From: Bolinopsis microptera | Lineage: Eukaryota > Ctenophora > Tentaculata > Lobata > Bolinopsidae | Direction: 5' to 3' | Length of the DNA stretch: 64,000 nucleotides | Assembly (NCBI RefSeq): GCF_026151205.1 | Contig: NC_087074.1 | Coordinates: 10,077,226 to 10,141,225, forward strand | Part shown: positions 40,248-52,150 of the stretch, piece after piece | How the letters are laid out: every line of letters starts with the position of its first letter | How positions within the stretch are numbered: position 1 is the first letter of the stretch | Program-made: the position numbers and the translations under genes | The notes under the pieces: generated by a model | The model's input: the letters and a program-made list of their open reading frames with translations, nothing else | The model's database searches: none | Told to the model about the DNA's origin: nothing

Positions 40248-40359
40248 ACTTCGAATTGACATACGTTGCATGCCACTTTTCGCGCGCGAAGCGCGCGCCG
40301 CCGAAGGCGGAATAATATCTCTGATATTTGTGATACGTAACATGTATCAAACTTCGAAC
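40248..40359. mobile_element. Short GC-hairpin insertion A (94 bp) with target duplication
   Basis: The insert at 40257-40350 runs from TGACATACGTTGCATGCC to CATGTATCAA and contains the hairpin CGCGCGCGAAGCGCGCGC plus CCGCCGAAGGCGG. ACTTCGAA occurs on both sides (40248-40255 and 40351-40358), a target duplication of 8 bp, or 9 with a last-base mismatch. A copy lies at 47880-47981 in the opposite orientation. Confidence 0.8.
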
Positions 40360-40734
40360 TATTTTGGACGCTGATTCCGAATCACCCCCAAGACACATGG
40401 TTAAAATGCTCCCCTGGCAAAATATTGCCGAAAAACTGTTTTGATCACGTAGGCGTACGTGATAAGACCGTATAAGGAAGTTGGTATAATTTTTATTATA
40501 TTAGTGTTTGTTATATTAGGGTTAGGGTTTCAGCAAATAAAATGCTTTTCTTAGTATTGGGATTGGGTTAAGGTTTGGATCAAATTAGCTAGGGTCGGGT
40601 TAGGGTTTTGTACAGTCGTTCAGGGTACTCAGCTAGAAAACGGGTTGAAAAAGTTACGTTGTACGTGACAGTTGTGAGTTGAGTGTAGTTTGATTAATCA
40701 TCATCCAAAATATACATTAAATGCACGACTAAAA

Positions 40735-41123
40735 TTGTAGCGCGATGCGTTACTGTGCCGCGCCGCGCACTCAATAAGGCTTCTCTCGCTGGCTAGATCG
40801 GCGAGATGCGCTACTGTGCCGCGCCGAGCTGCCATGAATTGACATCGTCAATTAAGACTAAAAACATTGTTTATAATTTAAACAAATATTGAAATATTCG
40901 TAATGTGATATGGAAGACGTCGCGTCGGTTATTCGACTTGAAGAATGTTACTCGTCTAAATTTCTTCAAATTAGCGCGCGCCGCTTTCTTTTCGAAAATG
41001 GAAATGCAATTAATTGACGATGTCAATTCATCTCAGCTCGACGCGGCACAGTAGCGCATCTCGCCGATCTGTGAGAAGCCTCATTGAGTGCGCGGCGCAG
41101 CACAGTAACGCATCGCGCTACAA
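40735..41123. repeat. Inverted repeat, arms about 115 bp
   Basis: The segment 40735-40856 (GCGCGATGCGTTACTGTGCC ... GAATTGACATCGTC) returns as its reverse complement at 41012-41123 with a few differences. The 155-bp spacer includes TTAGCGCGCGCCGCTTTC. It looks like a palindromic non-autonomous element. Confidence 0.8.
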
Positions 41124-41345
41124 GAAAGGCAAGTGCTACAAGTGTGCTAAATCACTCTACAGTCGATCTTCGAGATTTGGAGATTGTTCTAAAAGGGCCC
41201 AGGCCCCCGACAGTTGAAACCAACTACAATTGATGTACTTTCGGACGCTGATTCCGAATCACCCCCATGACATAAGTAATAGGGTTAAAATGCTTTGGCC
41301 CTTCACACAGCCATGTGTATACGCGTACTGCGTGACGCGCTTGTT

Positions 41346-42310
41346 TAGGGACTACGGGTGGAAGATGAATAATTGATATTCCAACAGCATCTTGTTCCCT
41401 GCATTGTGCTGATCCCGGGAAGCATTTTGTTTACGCTCTCATCATTCTGTAGGATGAGATATCGTTCATTTAAAATTGGGTAATTATAAGCCTGTCAAGG
41501 ATTTCAGCCTAATTAAGAGCTGATCAATTGCAGCTAGTTGTGCCATATAAGGGATAACTGAGGTCACGTGACATTCAGTCCTATCACGTGACCGCTAATC
41601 CTATCACGTGACCTTGATTCGTAAAGCCTCGGGCACGTGATCACATTCGTAACGTGTCGTATGCCGACTAGAAGATTTTGTGACGTCACCAGAGCTGAAG
41701 CTACTTGATCAGGCCTTATATGGAATAATATCGTGTATCGGGTGTAATTGGACCCAATTAGAGCAGCTGAGCGCTCAATTATAGCAGCATCTGGTACCAC
41801 CTTCTGAAACCCAGCAGACAGCTGGCCCTTGTATCACGTTGCGACCCCCAACTGACGATACAGGGGGAGCCGCGCACTTCGTGCGCGGCGGGTCATACAA
41901 CGTATGACAAGCTGGCCCAGAGAATCGAAATTAGAAGGATTTTTTATTGATGGAAATCGAAGCGGAAACCTTGTAACCCTATGTTTTCGATGACGCCGAA
42001 CAAGATTAAACAGGTTATAATTGTCCTACTCTCGTGTAAATTGCTCTAAAACGTGATTGAAATTGTAATGATGCTATCAATTGTAATACAGTTTTTACAT
42101 TAAGCTGAACGGCTGGCATTCCTGGGCCGCACTCATCCCAGATTGTCATTCCGCCGCAGCTTCAATTTTTCTGAATATTACAGCCTGGGGTCCCCAGGTA
42201 ACGACTGGAACCACTATATCTGCCTAATCTCAGTTATTGTCAATAACGAAGCCTGTGATCCGCACATCAGTCATTGAATGGGCTTGAATTGAACGTCGTG
42301 TTATTACTTA
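41346..42310 (+). repeat. Left arm of the foldback element
   Basis: Mirrored by 45448-46342. It contains repeated CACGTGA motifs, the palindrome CCTGGGGTCCCCAGG and, unlike the right arm, the 81-bp insertion at 41829-41909. Confidence 0.9.
41820..41918. mobile_element. Short GC-hairpin insertion B (81 bp), with empty site in the other arm
   Basis: The insert at 41829-41909 runs from TTGTATCACG to CGTATGACA, around the hairpin GCCGCGCACTTCGTGCGCGG. AGCTGGCCC is duplicated at 41820-41828 and 41910-41918. The mirrored position in the right arm (45855-45863) has only one copy of that 9-mer and no insert, which is a direct pre-integration site. Confidence 0.93.
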
Positions 42311-42700
42311 TTACTATAAAAAATATCATAGTATCGGGTAAATTTTTTCAAAATGCACTTGAATGTCATCAATTTGATTAAGTTATCATAAGTTGAATAG
42401 CTGGCGCATTTACAGTGCTACGTTTTCAATTATTCTACGAACACTTGGAATTAAAATCTATTTATATATATATTGCATTGTTTAATACTTATAATCAAGA
42501 TTGCTAAGTTCAGTGTGTGGATGAAGTATAGCGATGGAATCACTAACATATTTATGACTGTTTGATATTTCTTCGCTGCAGTCGCATATCATCCAGAGAA
42601 AGCTAATTTTAAAGAAGTAGTCTCGAAATTTTCGGGAATAAACTCAATATTGTGAAACATCATACAAAATATTATATAACGAGTGTTCTCTTTTAATAAA

Positions 42701-43723
42701 TCATTTCATTAGTTTTTTGAACTTCCTCTGCTTTCCTGGATTTTGTTGCCTCTCCTCAGAGACAACAATGTGGTGTCCTGCTTTCATGTCTTTGTTAGCA
42801 CACTTCAGCTTTGATTCTGTCATCAGTGCCACCGCTCTTTCGACTGCTTGCTGGTGGCAGGGATATTTCGTCACCAAAGGTGATTCTATGAACCTGTCGA
42901 ATTGATCAGGATCAGAGGGATGCACCCTTACTACCGATGGAATAGTGACTGCAGCCCACTTCAGCTCTTCTGAAATATAACTTGTTATCATAAACTTTCC
43001 TTTTTAAATTCAATACCATCCGTATTGTTTTCACTTTGACCTTATAGCTTTGAATACAAACGTATGTCAATCACTTTATAAATACAATAATATAATATTA
43101 ATAGTTACGTCATAGTAAATACAATTTGAAATGAACTTACTGCACGCAGTTCTGTAACAGAGACCAAATAAATGGTACGGTTTGAAAGACTTAGTCTTTC
43201 TCACCGGATCTTTATCCTCGATGTCAGTGTTGTAAATGACAAGGTCAAGGTACGATTTTGCATTTCTGTTAATCTCTGGCTTGCAAAATATCCGCGGTTT
43301 TCCATTCGGGCGTATTGTCCGGTTCATGCCCTTCTGCTCAAGTTCTATAAGCTGCCTGCAGAGAGCCACGCCTTTTTCCCGAACAGCTCTATCTGCGTCA
43401 CCTTGAGGAGTATTTTCATTCACATTTATTTAAAGGAACAGAACCAAAAGCGGGGACAAAGGTGAACAATTTAAATAACTAAACTGTAACAAGAGCTTCG
43501 TGACAACAAATATCCACTAAAATAAAACATGTACTAATTTCTCACCGAGACTGCAAACAATAATTGCTTCAGGATGAGCGAAGTAACTATTGTTACAAAC
43601 TTTCTTCAAAACTGCTGTTCGTTCTTTTGGCGAAAGTTGTATGTCATTATTGAGTGTGAGGCTTGTAAAAACATGATAAGCCCCATCCTCAATAAGAGGA
43701 CGCAGTTTGATCTGAGCGTGCAT
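42701..43723 (-). CDS. Intron-containing gene of unknown function inside the foldback loop
   Basis: Three exon blocks are visible on the minus strand. The first is 43546-43723 (acceptor AATTTCAG, donor TCTCG|GTGAGA), containing AQIKLRPLIEDGAYHVF and CNNSYFAHPEAIIVCSLG. The second is about 43205-43415 (donor GATCCG|GTGAGA), containing GVALCRQLIELEQKG and NAKSYLDLVIYN. The last is 42701-42969 (acceptor TATTTCAG), ending in TGA, containing VRVHPSDPDQFDRF and YPCHQQAVERAVALMTES. The P-x-H-x-Q-x-V-E-R...T-E pattern recalls a motif I associate with uncharacterised, often multicopy invertebrate proteins; this is from memory and weak. It could be a captured host gene or a cargo or transposition gene. 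The N-terminal exons may be missing. Confidence 0.55.
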
Positions 43724-43769
43724 CTGAAATTTGAATGCTTGAGTAATGGTTTTCCTTGTGGCTCAAAAG

Positions 43770-44865
43770 AAAACTCAGTCCTCCTCCTCCTGGGTCCTCC
43801 TCCTCTTCTTCATCCTCTTCCTCCTCGGTCCTCAGTCCTCCTCCTCAGTCCTCCTCCTCATCCTTCTCATCAGTCCTCCTCCTCCTCAGTCCTCTCCCAG
43901 TCCCCCTCCTTCTCCTCCTCCTATTCAGTCCTCCTCCTCAGTTCTCCTCAGTCCTCCTTCTCATTTCTCCTAAGTCCTCCTCCTGAGTCCTCCTCCTCCT
44001 CTTCCTCCTGAGTCCTCCTCCTGAGTCCTCCTCCTCCTCCCTCTCAGCCATCCTCCTCAGCCATCCTCCTCAGCCATCCTCCTCAGTACTCCTCAGTCCT
44101 CCTCCTTCTCAGTCATCGTCAGTCCTCCTCCTCCTCCTCCTGGGTCCTCCTCCTGGGTCTTCCTGATCCTCCCCAGTCCTCTTCCTCCTCCCCTCCTCAG
44201 TCCTCCTCCTACTCCTCCTCCGTCCTCAACAGTCCTCCTCCTCCCCAGTCTTCCTCCTCCTCCTGGGTCCTCCTCCTCCTGGGTCCTCCTCCTCCTGGGT
44301 CCTCCTTCTCCTCCTCAGTCCTTCTCCTCCTCATCCTCAGTCCTCTTCCTCCTCTTCCTCCTCTTCCTCCTCCTCCTCCCTCTCAGTCATCCTCCTCAGC
44401 CATCCTCCTCAGCCATCCTCCTCAGTCCTCCTTCTCAGTCCTCCTCCTCAGTCCTCCTCCTCCTCAGTCATCCTCCTCAGTTCTCCTCCTCCTCCTCCTC
44501 CTAGGTCCTCCTTCTGGGTTCTCCTCCTCCTCCTCCTGGGTCTTCCTGATCCTCCTCCTCCCTCTCAGTCATCCTCCTCAGTCATCCTCCTCAGTCATCC
44601 TCCTCAGCCATCCTCCTCAGTCATCCTCCTCAGCCATCCTCCTCAGTACTCTTCAGTACTCTTCAGTCCTCCTCCTTCTCAGTCCTCCTCAGTCCTCCTC
44701 CTCCTCCTCCTGGGTCCTCCTCCTGGGTCTTCCTGATCCTCCCCAGTCCTCTTCCTCCTCCCCTCCTCAGTCCTCCTCCTACTCCTCCTCCTCGTCCTCA
44801 GTCCTCCTCATCAGTCCTCAACAGTCCTCCTCCTCCCCAGTCCTCCTCCTCCTGGGGCCTTTTCC
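43770..44865 (+). repeat. 1.1-kb polypyrimidine tract (TCCTCC with CAG/GGG spacers)
   Basis: Degenerate TCC repeats are organised in higher-order blocks such as CAGCCATCCTCCT and TCCTCCTCCTGGG. A block of about 300-350 bp seems to be repeated (44040-44250 against 44560-44800). Open frames rich in Ser and Pro here are artefacts. Confidence 0.95.
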
Positions 44866-44984
44866 TGGGTCCCTATATAATTTGATATAATAAGTTAAAG
44901 CTATTAATAGCTTTAGTGTGATTAATAAGTCGTTTGTTTTGTACAAAATTATAATACATAGAAGTTGCGAAAAATTCTCAAAAT

Positions 44985-45195
44985 GTTTGTCCGCTAATGT
45001 CCACCAATGTCCGCTAATGTCCACCAATGTCCGTCTGAGTCCGCCAATGTCCGTCCGGGTCCGCAAATGTCCGTCCGAGTCCGCCGATGTCCGTCCGAGT
45101 CCGCCAATGTCCGTCCGTGTCCGCCAATGTCCCAAAAAACACGTCCGTTGTCTCATAGAATCCAAAAAGGACAGGACATAGGCGGACATAGACGG
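44985..45195 (+). repeat. Minisatellite of GTCCGCCAATGTCCGTCCGA
   Basis: 12-bp half units (GTCCGCCAATGT / CCGTCCGAGTCC) are repeated for about 200 bp. The terminal part carries an inverted piece (GGACATAGGCGGACATAG). A run of 18 C follows at 45205-45222. Confidence 0.9.
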
Positions 45196-45447
45196 ACGTG
45201 ACACCCCCCCCCCCCCCCCCCTACATTGATTTTAGTTACGTTGCAATTTTACTCGACTCTTATCAGTTCACTTCTTATCAGCGCGATCGCAGTAAGTTTT
45301 ACTGTGTGCAACAGTTACATAACTGTATAATACACATAACATTAACTCTGTAATGCACTTCAAACTGCAGTATAAAGAGTACGCACTTCGCACAAATGAC
45401 AAGAAGGTAATCTAGTAATACGATTTTTGGTATTAATATCTTTAATA

Positions 45448-46342
45448 TTAATAACACGGCTTGTTCGATTCAAGCCCGTTCAATGTGGTCAATACCTGAT
45501 GTGCGGATCACAGGCTTCGTTATTTACAATAGCTGAGATTAGGCAGATATAGCGGTTCCAGTCGTTACCTGGGGACCCCAGGCTGTAATATCCAGATAAA
45601 TTGAAGCTGCGGCGGAATGACAATCTGGGATGAGTGCGGCCCAGGAATGCCAGCCGTTACGCCGCTCAGCTTAATGTAAAAACTGTATTACAATTGATAG
45701 CATCATTACAATTTCAATCACGTTTTAGAGCAATTTACACGAAAGTAGGACAATTATAACCTGTTTAATCTTGTTCGGCGTCATCGAAAACATAGGGTTA
45801 CAAGGTTTCCGCTTCGATTTCCATCAATAAAAAATCCTTCTAATTTCGATTCTCTGGGCCAGCTGTCTGCTGGGTTTCAGAAGGTGGTACCAGATGCTGC
45901 TATAATTGAGCGCTCAGCTGCTCTAATTGGGTCCAATTACACCCGATACACGATATTATTCCATATAAGGCCTGATCAAGTAGCTTCAGCTCTGGTGACG
46001 TCACAAAATCTCCTAGTCGGCATACGACACGTTACGAATGTGATCACGTGCCCGAGGCTTTACGAATCAAGGTCACGTGATAGGATTAGCGGTCACGTGA
46101 TAGGACTGAATGTCACGTGACCTCAGTTATCCCTTATATGGCACAACTAGCTGCAATTGATCAGCTCTTAATTAGGCCGAAATCCTTGACAGGCCTATAA
46201 TTACCCAATTTTAAATGAACGATATCTCATCGATCCTACAGAATGATGAGAGCGTAAACAAAATGCTTCCCGGAATCAGCACAATGCAGGGAACAAGATG
46301 CTGTTGGAATATCAATTATTCATCTTCCACCCGTAGTCCCTA
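45448..46342 (-). repeat. Right arm of the foldback element
   Basis: Reverse complement of 41346-42310, without the 81-bp insertion and with minor differences at the inner edge. Confidence 0.9.
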
Positions 46343-46579
46343 CGCTTGTTTCACAAGTAGAATATACTTTCGGCGGTCGCGTGCTACTGCAAGCGAGAGG
46401 GCTCTAGTTAGAGCAACTATGGCCCTGACGAGATATTGGCGAAAATTGTCTCGATCAAGTGATATGACCGTATAAGGAAGTTAGTCTAATTTCTCGTGAA
46501 GGTTAAGGTTTCAGCATATGATTTTGTTAAGGCTAAGGATTGGGTTAGGGTTAGGGTTGGGATCAAATTAAAGGATTAG

Positions 46580-46987
46580 GGTTTCGATTGTCATACGTTG
46601 TATGACCCGCCGTGCACGAGTGCGCGGCTCCCCTGTATCGCAGGAACTCTACTATAGTGTTGACCATTGTTAATGATCAGGCCCGGCGTGCGCTACTTCC
46701 TAGCACTTGCTTGGAGGACTTCGCCGCTTCGACGCGCCGCGCGAACTAGCATTCTTGCTTACTAGCATTCTTGCAACTAGCATTCTTGCATTCTTGCTTA
46801 CGACGATCGTTGCTCTGCTTCGCAGAGCAACGATCTCGACGGATTGACATCGTCAATCAAAGCACTTGCCATCGGGCCATTTCGAGAAGAAAGCGGCGCG
46901 CGCTACTTCAAAGAAATTTAGATGAGTAACATCCGTCAACTATAGTGAAGCGACAGTGGGAGTCACCACGTGATACAAGGTTTCGAA
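46580..46987. mobile_element. Short GC-hairpin insertion C, interrupted by a nested insertion
   Basis: The outer element spans 46589-46978, from TGTCATACGTTGTATGACC to ACGTGATACAA, flanked by GGTTTCGA (46580-46587 and 46979-46986). Inside it, 46658-46936 is foreign and flanked by ACTATAG (46651-46657 and 46939-46945), or 9 bp with one mismatch. The nested part carries its own GC hairpins (GCTCTGCTTCGCAGAGC). Confidence 0.75.
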
Positions 46988-47762
46988 TAATCGTTCAGGA
47001 CCAGCTAGAGAACGGGTTGAGAAAGTCACGTGACAGTCGAGTGTAGAGTGATTAATCATCATCCCAAGTGCTACGAAGTAGCGCGCGCCAGGTTGGTCCA
47101 TTAACAATAGTTAATGATTTGTCATTATTCGTCGTACCGCAGATTATTAATATGGGGCGCTATTATGTATTACAAATTATATATATATAACTTAAAATCT
47201 TTGGTCACAAGAGCAACTGCCTAAACGTGCAGAAGTGAAAACAAATAAATAAAAATATACTAGCAGTCCTTAATACAGTCCCTAATACTCGTAATATAAT
47301 AAATAGATTCATTCAATGTCATAAAACTCTTAACCATACACGTGACCAGTAAAATAATTTAATTGGTCTATTATATAGACTACTGTGTAAAATTCTCAAT
47401 ATAAACTTTTTTAACAATAATGAATAATAAATTAATTTAAAAAACACACCAACCTTTGGTGTGTAAGAATGATTAAACAACCTTTATTTGACATAAAATA
47501 TCTTTCAGAATATTATATTAGTATATGCTATAATATTAAAACTGTTTATCAGAGTTCAGGTAATAGAATTTAACTGTAATGGCACCTTTACAGTATTATC
47601 CATTGTTGAGACAAATTAGATGTTGACCGTTCTGTATACATGCTTGCACGTGTTTTTTATGAGTAAGCTGTGAAATTGTAATAGTAAGCTATACCAATTG
47701 TGTATTTAGACGCTGACTTTCGAATAAAATATATTACATAGCATGAAAATAATTTCTTGGCG
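46988..47762. other. AT-rich DNA between short insertions
   Basis: It holds another fragment of the GCGCGCGCC-type repeats near 47080 and otherwise nothing recognised. Confidence 0.4.
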
Positions 47763-47763
47763 A

Positions 47764-47990
47764 GTTATGATTTGTCATACGTTGTATGACCCGCCGCGCA
47801 CGAGTGCGCGGCTCCCCTGTATCGTAGAAACTCTCTAGTGAAACGACGATGGGGATCACGACGTGATACAAGTTATGAGTTGATACATGTTTCGTATCCA
47901 AATATCAGAGATATTATTATTATTTTTCCGCCTTCGGCGGCGCGCGCTTCGCGCGCGAAAAGTGGCATGCACCGTATGTCAAGTTATGAG
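47764..47990. mobile_element. Two short GC-hairpin insertions in tandem at one target
   Basis: The first insert, 47773-47871 (TGTCATACG...GTGATACAA), is the B/C type. The second, 47880-47981 (TTGATACATG...CGTATGTCA), is an inverted copy of type A. The target GTTATGA occurs three times, at 47764, 47872 and 47983: before, between and after the two. The outer pair around the second insert is the perfect 9-mer AGTTATGAG. Confidence 0.85.
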
Positions 47991-48573
47991 CATGTTTGAT
48001 GTTGGATGTTTGAGAAAATAATCATTTTGTTAGACGCGCGCAAGTGACAAGCTTGTAAAATTATATTTGAGCTGTTTATGCTTTAAGATTCGAATTAGTT
48101 TTGGTTTCAAAGTAATTGTGAAGATTATACAAAGATTTGAAGTACAAAGTTGTGCACCTTAACTTTAAATACTTGTACTTACCATTAAAATCGAAATCAG
48201 CATTTACAAGTTTCCTGTGCCGCCTTCGGTGGTGCGTTCTAATGCAAGCGGAACGGCTTTGGTACGGTTGAGCAAGCTTTTTTCTGTTTCTTTTGAAATT
48301 AAATTTATCATTTATAGTTGTTTCTAATAGAGAAATTATCGTCCTTTTAAATTTTTAGGATATGTTCCAGGATAATTCGCAATTCGGGTGATACTCGTAA
48401 AATATGGGTTTCAACTCAGCGCGAGTTTTGGTAGGTTATAAATCTTCAAGTTCTAGGAATTATTTAGAATAGATCAATCAAGGCGAATTGCGAGATAGCC
48501 CCAAAATGCAAAAGCAGCTGATAAACATCACTCCTATGATCTTTATTGAGCAAAAATAACTGTAAGGCCTTTA

Positions 48574-48820
48574 ACCTGGGGTCTCCAGGCTATTATGTTC
48601 ATAGATTCGGCGGAATGACAGGCTGAGCGCCGCCCAGTAAAAGGCCTTCTACTGTTTATCACAAACAACTGTAAAGTCAATTTGGAGAAAATTCTCGTGA
48701 AGACCCCCAGCCCCTATTTAACTTTATTTGGGGCTTCTTATTACTGGGCCGCGCTCAGCCTGTCATTCCGCCTAATCTCTATTCTATGTTTACCAACATT
48801 AAAGCCTGGGGTCCTCAGGT
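48574..48820. mobile_element. Small palindromic element sharing ends with the foldback arms
   Basis: The left half starts ACCTGGGGTCTCCAGGC and contains GGCGGAATGACAGGCTGAG. The right half is its inverted copy, ending CCTGGGGTCCTCAGGT. The same pieces (CCTGGGGTCCCCAGG, GGCGGAATGACA, GGCCCAG) are found in the foldback arms near 42120-42210 and 45555-45640. No clear target duplication was found. Confidence 0.75.
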
Positions 48821-48852
48821 AAGCTTCTTATTGATTCCGTTTTTCTTACGAG

Positions 48853-49029
48853 AAATTTTATTTCGCCACTTACGCCACTTTTTTTTCGCCACTGCTTCTT
48901 GACCTCTCATCTATAGGGGGCATCATTATTCACATCCTTCAAATTTTATTTCGCCACTTACGCCACTTTTTATTTCGCCACTGCTTCTTGACCTTTCATC
49001 TACTAGGGGGCATCGTTATTCACCTCCCT
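48853..49029 (+). repeat. 88-bp tandem duplication
   Basis: Two head-to-tail copies begin AAATTTTATTTCGCCACTTA and differ at a few sites. The first bases of a third copy follow at 49030. Confidence 0.92.
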
Positions 49030-49394
49030 CAAATTTTCAGCATCTAATTGCACGATGACCCTGAGCAATTATGTCTCGTGTGCACTCATGTCTCCGTTTG
49101 TATCTTCATTGCTTCAGGGACACTGGGCAACATGTTAATATGTGCTTTAAGTCTAACTGCTGGCGTCTGCACAGTGGACAGTTGTTCGATAGCTAATTCC
49201 TATTTTTTCTTCAGCTCTTGTGCTACCCATATTAAAGTCACCAATTTTAGATGAACGTTAGCCTTGAAGCTTATCTAGCAGGAACCCGTCTAACCCTAAA
49301 GTGGTGTCAAACCTCAAGAGACTAAAATAATTATTACCTATTCAATTCGCGTTTTTGACACCACTTGGGAGTCTTAATTTTGAGCACTACAATC

Positions 49395-49446
49395 CTTATT
49401 CCTTGACATACGTTGCATGCCACTTTTCGCGCGCCAACTTATTCCT
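49395..49446. mobile_element. 34-bp insertion D with perfect 9-bp target duplication
   Basis: The insert at 49404-49437 starts TGACATACGTTGCATGCC, continues ACTTTTCGCGCGC and stops at CAA. CTTATTCCT flanks it exactly at 49395-49403 and 49438-49446. It equals the first 31 bp of insertion A joined to the last bases of its other end, so it is an internally deleted copy. Confidence 0.88.
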
Positions 49447-49681: not shown

Positions 49682-52150
49682 TCATGAGATATTTATTCCC
49701 TTTCTCTTGGCAACACGAGGATTTTTATATAAATATTGGACTTGTTGCTTCTTCTTTTCGATATAATTTACACCCTCTATTTTTGCTAAAACTATATTTG
49801 ACACTTCCCAAAAGTTGCCTGTGTCTACTAAATTATTAGTCTTTTTAAATTCTTCTAGATTAATTTTAAAATCAATAACAGACATTGAATTTCTAACAAA
49901 AGATGGCAATTTATTCCAAAAGCTGATAACACGCTCTGATAAAAAATTATTAGACAAGGTTTTAATATTTCTATCAATATTGTTAGATTTAGTGCTAACA
50001 ATTTTATTTCCTGATCTACTTAAATTGAAAATATCTTTTCCATACTCAACCAATCCATTTACAATTTTGTAGGCTTCAATCAAATCTCCTCTAACCCGTC
50101 TCTCTGCGAGTGTTGTAATCTGTAAGGCATCCAACCTTTCACTGTAAGGAAGTGTTCCAATATCATCAATAAGGCGTGTGAACCTTCTCTGGACATTTTC
50201 CAGTTCAATGATAGTAGCCCAATTCCCATGGCAGGCAGGTGGAGACCACAACTGAGCACAATACTCCAAGTGGGGTCTTATTATAGTTTTATAAACATTT
50301 CTCATAACATTAATTTCTCTTATAATGAGATTCCTTGTAACCCATGCAATCATACTGTTTGCTTTACTAATACAACTTTTAATATGTTTCGACCATTTCA
50401 AATCTGAAGAAGTTAAAACTCCAAGATCTTTCTCTGCTTCAATACATTCAAGTGTAACACCACTAAATACATATTCTTGAAGGGGATTTTCATTAAATGG
50501 AACATGCATTATTTTGCATTTGCTAGGATTAAACTTTAACAGCCACACATTTTGCCAGTTTTGCAAGCTTTCTAACATATTGAAAGTGCTTTCAGTGTCG
50601 TTGGCATCCATAATAACTTTAAGATCATCTGCAAACAGTTTTGATATACCATTAATACAATCAGGCAAGTCATTGATAAAAATGACAAACAATAAAGGAC
50701 CTAAAACAGACCCTTGTGGGACGCCTGATAAAACATCACGAAGGTAGGAATATGCTCCACCAACAAATGTCTTAAATCTTCTTCCAGATAAAAAGTCTTT
50801 CACAATATCTAAAGTGTTACCACTTATACCCAAATTTCTCATTTTTGTAAGTAGTCTATGATGTGGAACACTATCAAATGCTTTACAAAAATCTAAGTAA
50901 AACACATCTACGGGTGCACCATCTTCTAATAGTTCGATGATACATTCTACACTCTCTAATAGATTAGATAAACAAGATTTACCTTCTACAAATCCATGCT
51001 GGTTTGGATTTATTTTCTTACTAACAAAACTCATAATATGCCTCCTTACTAATTTTTCATATAATTTACATAAAATGCATGTAAGTGACACTGGCCTGTA
51101 ATTTAGGGCATCTTTCCGACTACCCTTTTTATAAAGAGATGTAACATTTGCTGTCTTCCACTGTTCTGGAATTTTTCCACTTGAAGCACATGTTTGAAAT
51201 AATTTAGTCACAGCAGAAACAAAACTTGAATTATGTTCAAGTTCTTTTAATAATTTAGGATGAATGCCATCTGGCCCTTTACTTTTACTAATATTAATTC
51301 TTTTCAGTTCTCTGCCAACATCATCCATTGTTATCTCAATATTTTCAATGTGTAACTCATCCGCAATAAAATAACATTCTCTGTTCAAAGGTCCATCTGG
51401 TTCTTTGACAAAAACTGAAGCAAAAGCATCAGCCAATACTTCGGCAGTTTCAAAATTACTTTTGGTCAAAGATCCGTCCGGTTTTTCCAGGGATGATACA
51501 CAACTTTTTAACACTCTTTTCCCTCTTAAATATGCATAAAATGGCTTCGTATTATATTTCATACACTGTGTAATTTTTCTTTCATAATTAACTTTACACT
51601 TAAATGACTTACTATCAAACTGTCCTTGTTGGTTCAGTGCAACATTAAGATTTTCAGAAGAAGGATTATTATCAAAGATATACCAACATTTATCTGTCTT
51701 TTTCCTGCATCTTTTTAAGGATGAATTTGCCCAAGGCTCACATTTAAAGTTCTTTTCCGTCGGAACTATATCAGATACTAAGTTAAGCTTTGAGTGTAAC
51801 TCACTCCACATATCTTCAGAAGTTAAAGTACCCTCACTAAAAGACCAGTCAATTTCAGCTGATCTGTGTAACAATTCTTTGCCAGAGACTTTTCCCCATA
51901 ACTTTCTAGACTCCTTTGCAGCCTCATCATCTTGCTTACTGTTACTAAGACTTAGATTTAATTCTACATTAAAACAAACATGATCGCTCTTCCCCAAGGG
52001 GGAGACAATCATTACTTCATTGACAATAGCTTCGTTTGTAGAGAGAACCTGATCTAGTGTACTCTCTTGAAGTTTACCGCTGACAACTCTACGTCTGGTA
52101 ACTTCATCTGTGATATACCAAACCAAGCCATTGTCTTGTACACATTCCAT
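49682..52150 (-). CDS. LINE ORF2: end of endonuclease and reverse transcriptase
   Basis: An 822-codon open frame. The first part closes the APE endonuclease (GKSDHVCFNVEL). RT motifs follow: EQWKTANVTSLYKKGSRKDA, NYRPVSLTCILCKLYEKLV, QHGFVEGKSCLSNL, VFYLDFCKAFDSVPHHRLL, GVPQGSVLGPLLFVIFINDL and the catalytic FADD (KLFADDLKV). The C-terminal part is the usual LINE thumb and tail. The ORF has no defect within this stretch, but upstream it is cut off by the TTAA-flanked insert. Confidence 0.95.
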   Translation of the reverse strand: MECVQDNGLVWYITDEVTRRRVVSGKLQESTLDQVLSTNEAIVNEVMIVSPLGKSDHVCFNVELNLSLSNSKQDDEAAKESRKLWGKVSGKELLHRSAEIDWSFSEGTLTSEDMWSELHSKLNLVSDIVPTEKNFKCEPWANSSLKRCRKKTDKCWYIFDNNPSSENLNVALNQQGQFDSKSFKCKVNYERKITQCMKYNTKPFYAYLRGKRVLKSCVSSLEKPDGSLTKSNFETAEVLADAFASVFVKEPDGPLNRECYFIADELHIENIEITMDDVGRELKRINISKSKGPDGIHPKLLKELEHNSSFVSAVTKLFQTCASSGKIPEQWKTANVTSLYKKGSRKDALNYRPVSLTCILCKLYEKLVRRHIMSFVSKKINPNQHGFVEGKSCLSNLLESVECIIELLEDGAPVDVFYLDFCKAFDSVPHHRLLTKMRNLGISGNTLDIVKDFLSGRRFKTFVGGAYSYLRDVLSGVPQGSVLGPLLFVIFINDLPDCINGISKLFADDLKVIMDANDTESTFNMLESLQNWQNVWLLKFNPSKCKIMHVPFNENPLQEYVFSGVTLECIEAEKDLGVLTSSDLKWSKHIKSCISKANSMIAWVTRNLIIREINVMRNVYKTIIRPHLEYCAQLWSPPACHGNWATIIELENVQRRFTRLIDDIGTLPYSERLDALQITTLAERRVRGDLIEAYKIVNGLVEYGKDIFNLSRSGNKIVSTKSNNIDRNIKTLSNNFLSERVISFWNKLPSFVRNSMSVIDFKINLEEFKKTNNLVDTGNFWEVSNIVLAKIEGVNYIEKKKQQVQYLYKNPRVAKRKGINIS

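Follow-up and report, generated by a model that had tools for sequence, protein, structure and literature searches.

Very short TTG...CAA transposons of Bolinopsis microptera, in one family probably hollowed out copy by copy from longer elements

Here we describe two families of very short insertions, A and B, in the genome of the ctenophore Bolinopsis microptera (264,652,675 bases searched, 232 contigs), six of which lie in a stretch of 64,000 nt at C3:10077226-10141225, hereafter the window. The insertions are non-autonomous cut-and-paste DNA transposons of the terminal inverted repeat (TIR) type, with TTG...CAA ends and an 8-bp target duplication. Judging from the sequences, the short family A copies look like internal deletions of long elements with the same ends, nearly every compared copy having its own breakpoint, and not like copies of one miniature master. 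We suggest, with a probability of about 0.6, that they are trans-mobilised TIR transposons, probably hAT-related, which were hollowed out individually through incomplete gap repair.

All six window insertions start with TTG at the 5´ side and finish with CAA at the 3´ side. Their related ends and flanking duplications were already reported in an initial annotation of the window and hold upon re-reading, and one of them even has an empty site in the window; the six places stand, with their coordinates corrected (Table 1). The annotated size below that of usual miniature inverted-repeat transposable elements (MITEs) is confirmed as well. Family A ends are TTGACATACGTTGCATGCCAC...AACATGTATCAA and family B ends are TTGTCATACGTTGTATGACCC...CGTGATACAA; a third type (TTGAC...GTCAA) was seen once, as a 280-bp element that sits with its own 8-bp duplication inside a 103-bp B copy, making the 46588-46978 insertion a compound one. 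The adjacent B and A copies at 47772-47871 and 47880-47982 have the middle duplication in common, which means that one 8-bp target served for two insertions. The empty site belongs to the insertion at 41829-41910: a long inverted repeat, with stretches complementary at 96-99%, carries this insertion in its left arm and the uninterrupted target in its right arm. The 35-mer of 49403-49437 is also found at three other places in the genome, at none of them with a matching duplication.

With the ends set at TTG...CAA, the 8-bp duplication is exact in five of the six window insertions and has one mismatch in the sixth (GTTATGAT/GTTATGAG). Of 122 distinct 5´ ends collected in the window and at the other loci examined, 81 have a 3´ partner with an 8-bp duplication showing no more than one mismatch (67 exact, 14 with one), so the duplication is a consistent feature of genome copies, as the annotation implied. 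The other 41 had no partner in reach; two of these (L062 and L068) were paired later with more flanking sequence. In the 79 copies with a clear 3´ end, selected for at most one mismatch in eight, flanks match at 0.92-1.00 at positions 1-8 and at 0.20-0.33, about chance, at positions 9-15, which were under no selection. The target duplication is therefore 8 bp long, not 9 bp as annotated initially, and the ninth base is a chance match between flank and element end. Random pairs at the spacings of the window insertions have an exact 8-bp match in 0.35% of cases. A scan of 39-51 kb for TTG(A/T)...(A/T)CAA pairs with exact 8-bp duplication returned five, each of them a window insertion or the nested element, and six shifted controls gave 0, 2, 0, 1, 0 and 2 pairs. 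The targets are biased to G at position 1 (0.45 versus a background of 0.195) and slightly to T at position 2 (0.35 versus 0.305; 65 sites, symmetrised).

Genome-wide, family A has 297 + 286 = 583 5´ ends (35-base pattern, at most three mismatches) and family B 1,294 + 1,274 = 2,568 (30-base pattern); backwards patterns gave 0 in both cases. Copies of A are listed on C1-C13 and three small contigs. A tandem satellite, the occurrence that would have spoken against mobility, was considered and rejected: copies are dispersed, and only two adjacent pairs within 30 bp were seen among the loci examined. Folding of single DNA strands gives several hairpins in a row, two of them with a GAA loop, for the A copies of 95 and 103 bp, and a strong GC-rich hairpin for B copies. 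Of five window copies taken into folding (the 391-bp insertion was left out), four score far below shuffled versions of themselves (z -2.65 to -5.03) and the 35-bp copy does not (z +2.64); the hairpin core initially ascribed to the insertions is supported in four of the five. Both families have the descriptive features of MITEs, being short, non-coding and present in many copies with conserved ends and a target duplication. The homogeneous length and interior of one amplified form are absent from family A; B is more centred, yet broad. Titles and abstracts of the open-access literature searched do not describe either family.

A short A copy corresponds to the first 26-60 bp of a long element joined to its last 3-40 bp. 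Among the 37 paired A copies of up to 200 bp (4 of the 41 paired exceed this length), we distinguished 33 junctions and 35 sequences; one junction is shared by three copies, and two others by two copies each. By contrast, the 5´ arms are little changed: in 37 of the 41 (an overlapping set, the other four omitted mostly for a short arm), we counted 10 mismatches in 1,694 bases (0.6%), with 29 copies unchanged. True divergence may be larger, because similarity guided the choice of A copies: they either matched the window copy best or had no more than one mismatch over their first 35 bases. Least affected by this bias are 26 places taken in their order on C1 (L055-L080). Of these, 14 are paired short copies (46-110 bp, 13 distinct sequences), three are long elements, and for nine no partner was found. 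Outside the A/T-rich zone there are 17 junctions, 8 with microhomology, 2 blunt and 7 with filler. Exact microhomology amounts to 1-2 bp; one case reaches 6 bp, but only if a mismatch is tolerated. In the copy L013, part of the 3´ arm is present a second time. Two 67-bp copies have equal breakpoints and different 3´ subtypes, hence this deletion arose twice. Many 5´ breakpoints fall in or just past the second hairpin, at 47-60 bp.

Lengths tell a similar story. An exact-end census of A gave 392 matches (135 of 35-65 bp, 189 of 66-96 bp, 68 of 97-127 bp; reversed patterns 0), at least two places being counted twice (C2:19858609, C3:7944803). Because it requires 21 and 12 exact end bases, the census passes over copies such as the 35-bp one. 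Among the 268 matches listed, lengths spread over 40-126 bp with at most 10 at any one length. One amplified MITE should give a peak, so there appears to be no master length. For family B, 1,006 matches fall between 88 and 118 bp, of which the 100 listed cluster around 98-108 bp, and 40 paired copies have 38 distinct central stretches. Within a single pair of duplications, two B copies (L032 1385-1603 and L026 1501-1622) hold either another, shorter piece of B or a 3´ end that is repeated, a pattern that template-switching repair could give.

The long elements provide a possible link to a transposase. We could delimit five elements of 1.3-7.9 kb that have A ends between exact 8-bp duplications (Table 1). 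Four of them, and a sixth A 5´ end (L085) that leads into the same interior and has no matching 3´ end within 9.6 kb, carry stretches matching exons of a hAT gene on C6 (exons 2 to 6 in L085), with main matches of 66-87% amino-acid identity. PF05699, the hAT C-terminal domain, is recognized in this gene (E 2.2e-20), and it matches Hermes transposase in PDB (E 6.8e-8). The gene lies in a 4,572-bp element (L086, L087) that runs from CAGGGG to CCCTTG and is flanked by the 8-bp duplication GCTCCAAC, inserted in a long interspersed nuclear element (LINE) frame that reads on across the site. A Pfam search did not recognize the hAT pieces of the long elements, and their assignment rests on the C6 relative. 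Its first and last exons (N- and C-terminal) are matched in no long A element read, and the matches to exons 2 and 3 are split between frames. The long A elements read here thus look non-autonomous themselves; a view of them as autonomous finds no support, the transposase exons of these copies being incomplete and broken. The larger same-ended elements anticipated by the initial annotation do exist, with transposase only as broken hAT exons in four of the five. This is the sole transposase-like sequence recognized in them, and the notion of a new class of mobiliser finds no support.

The DTRW exon is present at 16 places (17 matches) in the genome. Nine of these lie within the stretch of listed A ends (at most one mismatch, C1 to C4:9.1 Mb), and for seven of the nine an A end on the same strand lies 1.2-5.9 kb upstream. 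The genome holds at least 150 PF05699 matches. Comparison by eye of 150 such places with the A and B ends listed gave no hAT C-terminal domain inside an A- or B-ended element; a near coincidence of C4:9140992 with an A end at C4:9145790 was dismissed, the end belonging to a separate 46-bp copy. The long A elements also contain a second gene fragment, unrelated to hAT. A 717-amino-acid open frame at C3 resembles a LINE frame fused to a piece of this fragment's family, and has no Pfam match (read over 1,301 bases). Self-matches in L083, L084 and L082 indicate an array of an approximately 91-bp repeat in the 5´ half of the long A elements, varying between copies.

Our proposal starts from what was observed here, that is the ends, the duplication, the dispersal, the long same-ended elements and the diversity of junctions beside little-changed arms. 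Short A copies would be leftovers of elements of up to about 8 kb. Transposase supplied in trans, perhaps a hAT-related one, would open the elements, and gap repair would start from the ends and break off. End joining with microhomology or filler would then close the remaining gap, leaving an own hollow copy at each locus. Possibly, repair tends to stop at the GC-rich, GAA-capped hairpins of the 5´ arm. In Drosophila, repair products of P-element excision arise from aborted synthesis-dependent repair, after which polymerase theta joins the ends with microhomology and templated inserts (PMC2895639). Among hAT elements, the Ac/Ds family produces internally deleted forms and variable filler, flanked by 8-bp duplications (PMC3260210). 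We favour hAT because of the hAT exons in long elements and the C-terminal hAT domains in the genome. Duplications of 8 bp, as found here, are a trait of the hAT and P superfamilies. The families are not filed as hAT, for want of hAT-type ends and of an autonomous element: the hAT-type terminal sequence is CAGGG or TAGGG, seen also in the C6 hAT element and Ac/Ds, and the ends here are TTG...CAA.

Several points weigh against this proposal. No mobiliser or autonomous element with A or B ends was found among the elements read, no long B parent was seen among the paired B copies (the longest without a recognized nested element has 355 bp), and the A ends are unlike the CAGGGG ends of the related C6 element. 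The hAT exons may be captured cargo, because an unrelated gene fragment sits in the same elements. Selection for well-kept ends lowers apparent divergence. Differences within the 95-105 bp A class lie largely in a simple A/T repeat, and part of this class may descend from a single founder through slippage. Finally, one 71-bp sequence is present at two sites with different duplications, and equal lengths recur near each other (e.g. C3:18130202 and C3:18130804), so some short forms may have moved or duplicated as units.

An alternative is that these are ordinary MITE families descended from several miniature founders, with an unstable centre slipping later, where diversity reflects many founders and microsatellite change. 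The A/T-repeat variation within the 95-105 bp class, the junctions that recur among the 37 A copies and the centring of the listed B lengths on about 98-108 bp are in line with such an origin. We nevertheless consider it unlikely: in the ordered C1 sample only three of the 14 short copies, with their 13 distinct sequences, belong to the 95-105 bp class, and breakpoints extend into both arms, which slippage of the centre does not explain. Loss of interiors in place, through replication slippage between hairpins and with no excision, would account for the position of many 5´ breakpoints at the second hairpin, as arms carry stable hairpins. Deletions, however, span kilobases, and the filler at many junctions is not given by simple slippage, which makes this explanation very improbable.

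If a P-like transposase were the mobiliser, cutting inside the ends so that the tips stay, short copies would be excision scars. Their layout equals that of P scars (PMC2895639), P elements combine 17-nt staggered cleavage with 8-bp duplications (PMC7776569), and the target bias, G at 1 and C at 8, fits P. It fits hobo as well, whose palindromic motif is GTNCGNAC and similar to the P motif (PMC3276498). Retained end lengths, on the other hand, vary widely with no pile-up near 17 bp. The P-type transposase domain PF21787 has 0 matches in the genome, yet control genomes are equally silent, so its absence is not shown. Altogether, we regard excision scars of this kind as quite improbable. Mutator-like elements, proposed initially on account of 9-bp duplications, are TIR elements with duplications of similar order, mostly 9 bp and sometimes 8. 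With the 8-bp duplication established here that argument loses its support, and, on the duplication length and with no search of the genome aimed at Mutator-like transposases, we give this assignment almost no credence.

Several known systems come close to the families described here. Ac/Ds of maize shares the 8-bp duplications, non-autonomous internal-deletion forms, some variable filler and a number of about 900 copies, but named Ds forms measure about 400 bp to more than 1 kb and end in C/TAGGG, as opposed to 35-126 bp and TTG...CAA here (PMC3260210). Products of P-element repair in Drosophila have the same succession of 8-bp target, end remnant, microhomology or templated insert, other end remnant and 8-bp target; those are single laboratory events, whereas here there are hundreds of resident copies with longer 5´ remnants and P-type transposase undetected, the controls being silent too (PMC2895639). 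Mar, a short non-coding hAT-linked MITE of Drosophila with 8-bp duplications, also originated by internal deletion, but it is about 610 bp long and is reported to go back to one deletion that was then amplified, while our junctions vary from copy to copy (PMC3517528). The CMITEs of corals are likewise MITEs of unusual anatomy, with an interior more conserved than the ends and a piggyBac link; here ends are kept and the interior is lost (PMC2872659).

Non-autonomous elements, internal deletion and filler are already known. What is unusual is how short the copies are, with one remnant of 35 bp still between perfect duplications and 135 exact-ended matches at 35-65 bp, and that nearly every compared A copy has a junction of its own. 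Descriptions of MITE families usually start from a single deletion form that was amplified; here, varied breakpoints lie between little-changed ends. The repair steps of MITE birth, such as microhomology, filler, breakpoint hot spots and the role of hairpins, could therefore be read from one genome. Remnants of transposons as short as 35-60 bp can still have intact target duplications, and common MITE finders would probably pass over them. A bolder and rather doubtful idea is that the transposon ends act as a miniaturising device: GAA-capped hairpins of the 5´ arm would halt gap-repair synthesis, excision would yield a 40-126 bp stub in one step, and stubs with both tips would still be movable. 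If true, the genome would be an archive of hundreds of independent stubs, and MITE birth a routine process instead of a rare founder event.

Table 1. Insertions and related features in the window, and long elements with family A ends elsewhere in the genome
Feature	Position in window	Strand	Target duplication	Remarks
Family A copy, 95 bp	40256..40350	+	ACTTCGAA at 40248-40255 and 40351-40358	
Family B copy, 82 bp	41829..41910	-	GCTGGCCC at 41821-41828 and 41911-41918	
Empty site matching the 41829-41910 insertion	45848..45869	-		opposite inverted-repeat arm
Family B copy, 391 bp in total	46588..46978	+	GGTTTCGA at 46580-46587 and 46979-46986	103 bp minus nested element
Nested 280-bp element, third type (TTGAC...GTCAA)	46660..46939	+ (arbitrary)	CTATAGTG at 46652-46659 and 46940-46947	
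Family B copy, 100 bp	47772..47871	+	GTTATGAT at 47764-47771 and GTTATGAG at 47872-47879	one mismatch
Family A copy, 103 bp	47880..47982	-	GTTATGAG at 47872-47879 and 47983-47990	first duplication common with neighbour 47772-47871
Family A remnant, 35 bp	49403..49437	+	CTTATTCC at 49395-49402 and 49438-49445	32 bp of 5´ arm + 3 bp of 3´ end
Long A element, 1,280 bp			GGCCTCGC	no C6 hAT exon stretches
Long A element, 3,512 bp			CATCGCGC	C6 hAT exons 5 and 6 only
Long A element, 6,888 bp			CGCGACAC	C6 hAT exons 2 to 6
Long A element, 7,066 bp			GGCGTTAC	C6 hAT exons 2 to 6
Long A element, 7,868 bp			CAACTAAT	C6 hAT exons 2 to 6

Other features were noticed in the window. In an element of approximately 5 kb at 41346-46342, long inverted arms, complementary at 96-99% over stretches of 110-376 bp, lie around minus-strand open frames of 81-117 amino acids, one of which resembles, by eye, a frame in L085. 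Nested inverted repeats at 40735-41123 (arms of 51 and 61 bp, 95-96% complementary) enclose a stretch related to part of the 46660-46939 element. An open frame of 822 amino acids at 49682-52150 (minus strand) is similar by eye to a LINE reverse transcriptase. A long CT-rich low-complexity stretch and an array of 10-bp period occupy 43780-44860 and 44988-45140.

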